Origin: Sulfolobus acidocaldarius SUSAZ | GTDB taxonomy: Archaea > Thermoproteota > Thermoprotei_A > Sulfolobales > Sulfolobaceae | Direction: 5' to 3' | Assembly (NCBI GenBank): GCA_000508305.1 | Contig: CP006977.1 | Span: 776,621 to 840,620, forward strand | DNA: 64,000 bases | Shown here: positions 42,459 to 56,992 of the stretch, one piece after another | Numbering within the stretch: the first letter of the stretch is position 1 | How the letters are laid out: each line of letters starts with the position of its first letter | The notes under the pieces: model-generated | Database searches by the model: none | Seen by the model: the letters and a program-made list of their open reading frames with translations, nothing else | What the model was told of the DNA's origin: nothing | Made by a program: the position numbers and the translations under genes

Positions 42459-43268
42459 ATGGATTTTGTTTCTGTTGGAGGAAGGAAATTACATTTTACT
42501 CAAAGCGGAAAAGGAAAGAGGAATCTGGTACTACTTCATGGAATACCAGGTTTCTGCTATGACTTTAGACATAATGTAGATGTTTTATCTAAGAAGTTTA
42601 GGGTGACTAGGATAGATTTCAAGGGATTTGGACATTCTGAAAAAGGGGATTACGATGTGGACGACTTTCGTGTTGAAGTTCAGGCTAAAGAGATAATGGA
42701 GGCTCTTAATAAATTAGATATTCATGACTTTGTTCTTTTAGGTCATGACATTGGCTCAATAGTCTCACAACTCATAGCCCAGGAAACTAATTGTGACCTA
42801 GTTTTAATTAATCCAGCATATAAGGGCATGAGAGGAAGATGGAGAGACATAGCTAATGAGTACTGGTATATTTTCTTCCATCAAATTCCTATCGCTGAAA
42901 AAATGATTATTAGTAACTTGCGAGATTACATCAACTATTTCCTAGATCATCTGACTGTCAGGAAATTTAAGGAGGAGGAAAAAGAAGAGTATTTCAAAGT
43001 ATATGAAGAGCCTTACTCTGTAAGAGCCCTTGTAAATTGGTATAGGGCATATGTCTCTCATTTTAGATGGAACAACATAAGGAAAATAAAGAGTAAAACG
43101 CTGGTATTATGGGCTGAAAACGATCCTCTTTTCCCTACTTCATGGGTTGACAGACTATGGGAGGTATTCGAAGACTATAAGTTGGTGAAAATCCGCGAGG
43201 CAGGACATTGGCCACATGCTGAGAACCCTGAGGAAGTTAATAATGCTATACTTACGTTTTTTGATTAG
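42459..43268 (+). CDS. alpha/beta hydrolase, epoxide-hydrolase/dehalogenase-like
   Basis: A 269-residue alpha/beta hydrolase. The oxyanion motif is LLHGIPGF, the nucleophile elbow LGHDIGS has an Asp rather than Ser, the acid is in WAENDPLFP, and the catalytic histidine in AGHWPHAENPEEV. An Asp nucleophile is typical of epoxide hydrolases and haloalkane dehalogenases, which form an alkyl-enzyme ester. A lid with many Tyr and Trp residues lies between (about 130-200). The lid tyrosines fit epoxide hydrolases better. It is transcribed alone. An insertion-end remnant starts one base after its stop. Confidence 0.85.
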   Translation: MDFVSVGGRKLHFTQSGKGKRNLVLLHGIPGFCYDFRHNVDVLSKKFRVTRIDFKGFGHSEKGDYDVDDFRVEVQAKEIMEALNKLDIHDFVLLGHDIGSIVSQLIAQETNCDLVLINPAYKGMRGRWRDIANEYWYIFFHQIPIAEKMIISNLRDYINYFLDHLTVRKFKEEEKEEYFKVYEEPYSVRALVNWYRAYVSHFRWNNIRKIKSKTLVLWAENDPLFPTSWVDRLWEVFEDYKLVKIREAGHWPHAENPEEVNNAILTFFD

Positions 43269-43306
<38 letters not shown>

Positions 43307-43387
43307 ATTTTGTAAATAATTTATCAACTTAAGTAGACCTTTATAGTTGAGAAGAGAGACGTAAATATCTAGAACAGAATAGTTATT

Positions 43388-43868
43388 ATGATAGTCTCTG
43401 GAATCATGTTGGCGACAACTTATCTGTTGTTCGGAAGTAAGTTTGGTTACGATGTGGCATTTCCAAGAAATATACCAGCTATTATTGCCATATTATTCCT
43501 ACTGGGCTTTTTATACTGCATTATCGATAAATTTGAACATTTTAAGCTTAAAAACCACTAGAAAAATATGGAATATAATTAGTTTCTTACCGTTAATCAT
43601 TAGTTATCTCTTTGGCTTTTCATATTTATACATTGACTTAGGAAATATAGGCTTGAGCAGTCCTTTCGTGAATATAGTTATGCTATCCTATTACGCTTAC
43701 ATGAATGAAGATCCACCATTTTCAATCATGGGGGATGCTAGCTCCTCAGTATCTCCTTTCATACCCCTTATAGTTCTGTTATTCTGGATAGGCCTTTTAT
43801 CAGTATTAGCTGTGATATTCGTTAGAAATCTATATCTTAAGCCCACGGAAGAAGGGAGGTCAATTTAA
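43388..43868 (+). pseudogene. frameshifted ABC-2-like membrane subunit
   Basis: Two frames make up one gene. The first, from the ATG at 43388, reads MIVSGIMLATTYLLFGSK and has a hydrophobic helix near residues 30-45; it stops at 43561. The second runs on with LKTTRKIWNIISFLPLIIS to a stop at 43868 and has two or three more helices. They join across the A-run near 43548, where a single base has been lost or gained. The whole would be about 160 residues with four membrane segments, like a small ABC permease. It is followed at once by the ABC ATPase. Confidence 0.65.
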
Positions 43869-43869
43869 C

Positions 43870-44638
43870 ATGATAGAGCTTAAGAACGTAAAAGTTTATG
43901 GTGAAAAGAAAAAAGAGATTATTAGAGGAGCGACCTTAAGTTTATCTAGTAAGAGTCTACTGTTAGGACCAAACGGTTCAGGCAAAAGCACTTTACTAAG
44001 GGCCATCTGCGGCATAAGAGATTATGAAGGTTCAATTAGAGTTGATGGAATAGAGGTAAAGGGAATCAGAAGGTTCACCAAACTATCATGTAATTTACCA
44101 GAAGCTTATTCATTAGGGGTAAAATTAATAGACAAACTCAATACTAAAGGAAATAAAAGAGTTAGACATTAATTTAGCTAAAAACATACTTAAGGAGGTT
44201 GGAATGAACAATCTAAACCAGAATTATTATGATTTGTCTTCAGGTCAAACTGTGCTATTTAATACTGTGTTAGTATTAGCCTCGTATCCTAAACAAATAA
44301 TTATCGATGAGCCGTTTGAAAACGTCGACTACGCTAAAAGGAAAATAATAGTAAATTGGCTAAAGGAATATGGAGAGGAAGGATTAATAGTTACACACGA
44401 ACTTGATATGCTGAGTTTATTCCAAGAACATGATCTTTATCTGATATTTGAGGGAAAAACATTTGGTCCCATGAAAGTCGACGAGTTCCTGGAGTCTTCA
44501 ATAGTAGAGGAAGAGGACCCCTTAGCTTTAACTGTTGTAGAGATAAAAGGTAAGAAGTTCTCCATAACTAAATGTGATGATCATAGAGATAAAATTAAAA
44601 ACTTAAGAAGTATAGATAAATTATGCTTAGGCGTCTAA
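43870..44638 (+). pseudogene. frameshifted ABC transporter ATPase
   Basis: The first frame (43870-44172) holds Walker A GPNGSGKST near residue 38. The second frame (open before 44204, to 44638) has the signature YDLSSGQT, Walker B IIIDEPFENVD and the switch histidine VTHELD. A shift in the A-rich stretch about 44140-44160 separates them: in the second frame the sequence reads IKELDINLAKNILKEVGMNN, which continues the fold naturally. So the gene was intact until recently, with a length near 255 residues. It starts one base after the membrane subunit stop. The D-loop reads ENVD, a mild departure from the usual. Confidence 0.7.
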
Positions 44639-44653
44639 AGTGAACATGAGGAT

Positions 44654-45256
44654 ATGATTAAAGAGGCTAAGAAGCTAGCTTATTACACCCTTAAAAACGA
44701 GATTAGGAGAGCTTTAGCAAAATACTATCTTTTATGGTCAACTTTTCCAGCATTATATTCACCTATTTATTACATCATTGATAGTCTAAGCCTGAAAAGT
44801 TTTCTTCTATATAGTATTTCATTCCTTATACCTATTTTTATTTATATATCTCTTACCTTCGTCTTTTTTAATAAAGTAGCGAAAGTATGGGGAAAATTCT
44901 ACAAGATTTATCCAGAGATAAACCGTGAGCAAAAGGGGAAATTTTTCATTTTATACTCTCTTATCGGTATACTGTTGTTGATTCTTTTAATTATTTACTC
45001 CTATTATGATTTAAATTCAGTTTTTGAAGAAATTTTGGAAGTGTTCTACGTTGGTCTAGTATTAGTTGGACTATATTATAGTTACAGAATGGTAGGTTTA
45101 AGATATTATGATGTTGTGGCTTTAGTTAGTTTTACAGTATTGATGACTCTTTCAAATCTGAATAACATTATTTCAGTTTTTACCTATTCATTTTTTACAA
45201 TATCTTGGATTTACGCTGGTTATAAATCAATTAATGAGGTTGCTGAAAATGAGTGA
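44654..45256 (+). CDS. hypothetical membrane protein of the decayed ABC operon
   Basis: An intact 200-residue frame starting MIKEAKKLAYYTLKNEIRR. It has about five to six membrane helices (near 25-45, 49-73, 97-117, 127-145, 153-172 and 173-190) and an amphipathic N-terminus. It lies 15 bases after the ATPase and overlaps the regulator start (ATG at 45249). It is probably the second permease of an ABC exporter. It may be without function if its partners are broken. I do not recognise its family. Confidence 0.7.
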   Translation: MIKEAKKLAYYTLKNEIRRALAKYYLLWSTFPALYSPIYYIIDSLSLKSFLLYSISFLIPIFIYISLTFVFFNKVAKVWGKFYKIYPEINREQKGKFFILYSLIGILLLILLIIYSYYDLNSVFEEILEVFYVGLVLVGLYYSYRMVGLRYYDVVALVSFTVLMTLSNLNNIISVFTYSFFTISWIYAGYKSINEVAENE

Positions 45257-45555
45257 AGACCTAAAGAAGATCATGGAGTTACTGAATAACCCTGTGCTCT
45301 CAAATTCATCTAGGCTCGGAATTCTCATTTCATTGTATATTCTAGGCAAAACTACATTTGGTGATCTTCAAAATTCTACAGAAATACCTAAAAGTTCCCT
45401 TCACATGCATTTGCAGATTTTAGAGGAAAATGGGAATGGTTAGTGTAAAGAAGATACCTACTCTTTCAGGTCCTAGGACAATAGTGCAAATAACTGAAAA
45501 AGGTGTAGAGGAGATTAAAAAATACATCAACGTGATCAGGGACATAAAGATATGA
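45249..45555 (+). pseudogene. frameshifted ArsR-like winged-helix regulator
   Basis: The frame from 45249 reads MSEDLKKIMELLNNPVLSN and then the helix-turn-helix of a winged-helix regulator (TTFGDLQNSTEIPKSSLHMH). It stops at 45441-45443. In the next frame the end of the domain continues: MVSVKKIPTLSGPRTIVQI, then a helix to a stop at 45555. One extra G in GGGAATGG (45432-45439) explains the break. Intact, it would be an approximately 100-residue dimeric repressor, probably of this ABC operon. Confidence 0.7.
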
Positions 45556-55745: not shown

Positions 55746-56992
55746 TTGAAAAAGGTTATCAGCGTAGGAGGCATATCTCTACGAATTACTGGTGATAAAA
55801 CAGAAGAGCTCAGATTAAAGTACAAGTACAATTTTATGGAAAAGGGATTCCGTGGCTTTATTGTTACTTACTTCTCAGAAAATGTGGTAAAAAAATGTAG
55901 CTTCTGGGGCAGAATATATATTCTGGGGGAGAAGTCGTTATTTGATGAAAGACCAAAGAAGACTAGGGATGAGCTCTTCGATAGGGAAAAGGAGATAGAG
56001 GAAATAAAGAATAACGTAAATAGACCATTACTGGCTATATCTGGTATAAGAAGGATAGGTAAGACATCAACGTTACTTGTTGCCTTAAATGAGTTAAAAA
56101 CAGATTACGTTTTAATAGATTGTAGAAGATTAAAGGAAAACTATGGTAGACAGGATTTATATAGTATCTTCTCTGCCAGTTTTTCATTAATTATAGACAG
56201 GGCAAGGGATATTCTATCTGGTGTAAGGGGAGTAAGTATAGTGGGTAACTCTATAGAGTTTAAGTGGAAGGGTAGACAATCCCTCTCTTTAGCTGATCTG
56301 TTTGACCATTTAAACAAGAAGAGGCTTATAATAGCAATGGATGAAGCTCAAAAATTGGGGGACCACTTTCTACAGAGATCAAGGACGCAATTGCTCACGC
56401 CTATGATTATGATGAAAATCTGACATTCATTTTTACGGGATCGGAAATTGGCTTACTCTATGATTTCTTAGGAGTAGAGGATAAGAACTCACCTCTTTAT
56501 GGTAGATATTACTATTCTGTCACACTTGAAAGATTTAGTAGAGAGATGAGCAAGGAGTTTCTCACTAAAGGTTTCCAGGAAGTAGGTCTAAGAGCTGATA
56601 ATACTGTAATAGATAAATTAGTGGATCTCTTTGACGGAATTCCTGGTTGGTTAACATTTGGTGCAAATAGGTTCTTAGAAGGTGGAAAAATTGATGATAT
56701 AATGGAAATAGCAATAGGCGTTGCTTTGGACGAATAGGAAAAACTCATTGACACGAAGAAGAGGGTATCTGAGATTTCTGCTAGAAGATACAAGTATGCG
56801 CTTAAATGCTTAGGGTCAGGAATGAATACATGGAGTAAATTATTGGAGTGTATTCAGAGAAGCGAGGGGACTACGATCTCAAGTAGTGTACTCGATAATA
56901 TTTTGCTTAGTCTCGAAAAGACAAGTATAATCAAGGATTATGAATTTCTTGATCCAATATATAGGGAAGCTAGTAAGAGGATGAGGGTGTAA
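55746..56992 (+). pseudogene. broken archaeal ATPase (ATPase_2/DUF234 type)
   Basis: Remains of a 415-residue archaeal P-loop ATPase. The first frame (TTG start, to 56423) has LFDREKEIEEIKNN, Walker A SGIRRIGKTST and Walker B LIIAMDEAQ. After a G-run at 56356-56360 the correct frame becomes GPLSTEIKDAIAHAYDYDEN, then FIFTGSEIGLLYDFLG and SPLYGRYYYSVTLERFS, the sensor-type motifs of this family. An in-frame TAG at 56735-56737 interrupts again, and the winged-helix end (to 56992) follows. One lost G and one nonsense codon make it inactive. It lies 36 bases after gdh. Confidence 0.8.

Follow-up and report, generated by a model that had tools for sequence, protein, structure and literature searches.

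The locus and its intact counterpart

The window, which is the whole stretch of 64,000 nucleotides of Sulfolobus acidocaldarius SUSAZ that was analysed, contains four adjacent genes on its plus strand. These are the remnant of permease 1, an ABC-2-type membrane subunit (43378..43868), an ABC ATPase pseudogene (43870..44638), a second membrane protein, here called perm2 (44654..45256), and the pseudogene of an ArsR/HTH_34 regulator (45249..45555). Upstream of them lie a deletion junction (43376..43377, plus strand), a 54-bp remnant of ancestral intergenic DNA (43322..43375, plus strand) and a 47-bp hairpin repeat on the minus strand (43269..43316), the latter being situated between a hydrolase-like gene and the broken operon.

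The window is collinear with a congeneric sister genome, G001, the DNA identity being ca 89–94%, and in G001 the complete operon is found at the same place (G001:C1:869143-871626). Position, order and orientation of the genes are the same as in the window, and the DNA identity over the operon is ca 85%, but in G001 permease 1 is full and has its leader, and all four frames are open. The ABC ATPase there has 256 residues and a PF00005 match of 55.5 bits (cut-off 25), the second membrane protein has 205 residues and belongs to no family, and the regulator is an intact winged-helix protein of 101 residues of the HTH_34/ArsR kind. Permease 1, with 265 residues, falls slightly below the curated cut-off of the ABC-2 membrane family (PF01061 ABC2_membrane, 23.2 bits at residues 3–211, cut-off 26.9), and this match taken alone would be weak support for the permease assignment. 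The ATPase and the ABC-2-type permease genes are adjacent in G001, and this adjacency is retained in the relatives. From the pairing of the two genes, the ancestral function of the operon is predicted to be that of an ABC-2-type exporter. No close NCBIfam match that would point to a substrate reached its cut-off. From its adjacency, the regulator is likely to have acted on the operon to which it belongs.

Among solved structures, ST1066 of Sulfolobus tokodaii (PDB 2pjz) is the relative closest to the intact ATPase of G001 (aligned at 1–253, E 9e-61). While ST1066 is a complete protein, the ATPase gene of the window is frameshifted. No description of the function of ST1066 was found in the literature searched.

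The same gene set is present in more than 10 other related genomes, in some of which permease 1 is divergently oriented. All four genes are open in nearly all of these genomes, which means that the broken state in the window is the derived one. The operon is patchily kept (a search of 41 genomes gave perm2 in 15), and since it is missing from many related genomes, it is dispensable.

Lesions in the operon

The largest lesion is a deletion at the 5' end of the operon. A synteny gap and pairwise sequence comparison show that the window lacks ca 435 bp that are present in G001 (G001:869013-869447), and with them the leader region as well as the start and the first ca 102 of the 265 codons of permease 1. 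The junction was placed by local alignment. To its left, the intergenic remnant aligns to G001:868959-869012, with a score that none of 1000 shuffles reached, and to its right the sequence resumes at about G001:869448.

Besides this deletion, the comparison with G001 reveals five small frame-changing indels in the 2.2 kb of the operon. Alignment of the DNA of permease 1 to the intact gene gives two one-base losses, near 43495 and 43512, after which the family frame is back by ca 43515. A single two-base gap was also considered here and ruled out, as 15 of the 17 bases between the two gaps are the same as in G001. The ATPase gene has lost two bases near 44142. At perm2, whose orthologue in G001 is 74% identical, the ancestral GTG start has lost one base near 44644. 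The GTG is thereby out of frame, and the only possible start is the ATG at 44654, which corresponds to codon 6 of the G001 gene; from there the frame is open for more than 200 codons. The regulator has one extra base at 45432–45434, which divides the HTH_34 profile over two frames (positions 2–42 in the first ORF and 42–77 in the second), and the N-terminal fragment retains a match to HTH_5. None of the five sites is within a G001 run of at least five identical bases, and no in-frame nonsense change was found in any of the genes of the operon.

A previous sequence-only reading had proposed that permease, ATPase and regulator each carry a single one-base shift, while the gene between the latter two stays open. 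That the three frames are broken is borne out by the ORFs, the profile matches and the alignment to G001, and the shift in the regulator was both placed and sized correctly. In the ATPase, for which a site near 44150 had been given, the break is real but its size is two bases, not one. The permease is not shifted at 43548, as had been suggested. Perm2 is open as described, but the loss at its ancestral start had gone unnoticed, as had the deletion at the 5' end of the operon. One shift per gene is thus an underestimate, and the idea that restoring one base in each gene would yield intact proteins fails for the ATPase and for permease 1, the latter being also truncated by the deletion.

Background rate of frame breaks

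The frequency of such breaks in the surroundings was estimated from a comparison of 104 kb of the source genome (G000; one contig, 2.06 Mb) with 140 kb of G001, in which 90 G001 ORFs were mapped. Five gross breaks of frame within genes were counted in this comparison, and four of them are concentrated in 2.6% of the coding length compared (P ~2e-6). Outside the operon, only one gene with a clear frame break was found in ca 85 kb of compared coding sequence. The other ORFs that were flagged differ slightly at their ends, have gaps that compensate each other, or border on a rearranged stretch. The cluster of lesions, set against one other broken gene, does thus not reflect a general error rate.

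The other broken gene, at window positions 55926-56992, codes for an ATPase-like protein of 355 residues and has a one-base loss near 56358 together with an in-frame stop. Its orthologue at G001:882006-883073 is intact.

Origin of the frame breaks

Taken together, the comparisons indicate that a dispensable ABC-2-type exporter operon has very probably been inactivated recently in this lineage. The genes appear to be pseudogenes, in that their frames are broken relative to intact orthologues, and the operon has been hit several times, by the deletion that removed start and leader and by the five indels. Function would have ended either by the loss of the promoter region and the first start, or by one of the frame breaks, whichever came first, and the other genes, no longer under selection, would then have accumulated more lesions. 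Pseudogenes of prokaryotes with indel frameshifts have been surveyed before (PMC3711429). Like those, the genes considered here have breaks that lack a recoding motif and are not conserved across genera, and their products are truncated. Unlike those, the genes affected here are several neighbours in one operon, whose 5' end is also deleted.

The sequence-only reading had left the choice between early decay and sequencing or assembly error, and of these two it is decay that the present results favor. In favor of errors in a functional operon, none of the genes has a stop created by substitution, and dN/dS is low in ATPase and regulator (see below). However, the loss of ca 435 bp is not an indel error, the lesions are concentrated in 2.2 kb on an otherwise clean background, and the indels are of mixed size and sign and lie outside G001 homopolymers of five or more bases. 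We therefore consider errors to be a very unlikely cause. Even less probable, to the point of being nearly negligible, is that programmed frameshifting or transcriptional slippage yields full-length proteins from these genes, which agrees with the doubts expressed in the sequence-only reading. The sites named there are A- or G-rich, and one programmed −1 frameshift has been established in a Saccharolobus gene (PMC8211752). In that archaeal case, however, the Sulfolobales have kept both the slippery site and the sequence around it (PMC8211752), while here the sister and nearly all relatives have a single open frame, such that the frame transition is not conserved. The lesions are also unlike each other in size and sign, permease 1 lacks a start, and the ATPase of another related genome, G024, is broken at another codon, which fits an independent loss and not a conserved site.

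Another option is that the exporter is dead but that a piece of the operon, either the open perm2 or the N-terminal fragment of the regulator, has been retained because it serves a separate function. The more than 200 open codons of perm2 and the HTH_5 match of the fragment would be in line with this. However, with ca 2.3 frame-changing indels per kb, about one in four stretches of 600 bp is expected to be free of them, so the open perm2 is not evidence of selection on this gene. In addition, no other gene of the operon has a dN/dS as high as that of perm2, the ancestral start of perm2 is damaged, and the leader upstream is deleted. Retention of such a piece is accordingly judged to be improbable, and recent decay of the operon as a whole is the reading that we prefer. 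It would follow from it that the genes should be annotated as pseudogenes and not as several short proteins, and that the species has probably lost an exporter which its sister keeps, in what is otherwise an ordinary case of gene loss.

An orthologous ABC ATPase gene in G024 (L019:714-1473) is frameshifted at codon ca 103–107, that is, at a different place, while its neighbours are open, which looks like either a separate loss or an error. The ATPase gene of Thermocladium (L035) is also split, and it was left out as evidence because of the long runs of G and C in that part of the draft.

Selection and age

The dN/dS values of permease 1 (0.199) and perm2 (0.34) are near the top of the region, for which the median over 85 other genes is 0.06, while those of the ATPase (0.106) and the regulator (0.096) are modest. 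Derived amino-acid changes number 63 in the window versus 43, a suggestive excess that does not reach significance (P 0.064). At ATPase positions that are invariant in 13–14 relatives, three changes are found only in the window and none in G001.

An estimate of the age can be made from the intergenic gaps between the two species, which amount to 16.3 per kb for both lineages together, while the frame-changing indels of the operon are all on the window side. On this basis, the inactivation would cover roughly the final third of the period since the two species separated. Such an age fits the lack of in-frame nonsense changes, the fact that dN/dS is high in permease 1 and perm2 but not in ATPase and regulator, and the suggestive excess of derived changes. 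The same lack of nonsense changes, together with the modest values of the latter two genes, indicates that the decay is recent or not complete.

The dS of the operon, 0.37–0.70 for window positions 43378-45555 versus G001:869448-871626, clearly exceeds the median for the region, 0.26. This may reflect weak selection on codon use, or that the operon diverged earlier.

The hairpin repeat beside the deletion

The hairpin at 43269..43316 is absent at this place in G001. It represents the 3' end of a TnpB element (IS200/IS605-type), present as a solo copy, with an HgcC-like RNA, the Rfam model HgcC (RF00062) matching 43256-43387 of the minus strand with 30.4 bits, which is below the gathering threshold of 50. 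At four tnpB genes, the same hairpin follows the TNB domain at a distance of 64–77 bp. G000 has at least 43 similar places, and 39 of the 46 compiled hairpin places lack a TnpB domain within 2 kb. The exact 26-base core of the hairpin is found 17 times in G000 as compared to once in the sister. The copies look like a recent spread of solo 3' ends of TnpB elements. HgcC RNAs of Thermococcus have been described to derive partly from transposase genes (PMC4247193), and nothing on HgcC together with TnpB was found in the literature searched.

The deletion junction is located ca 60 bp from the hairpin element, with ancestral intergenic DNA between them. One could speculate from this proximity that TnpB from a full element, guided by the RNA of the solo copy, cut the nearby DNA and thereby provoked the deletion of ca 435 bp, a scenario to which we assign very little probability. 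The hairpin was noted at L033:6196-6243 and, in L002-L008, near 1501-1557.
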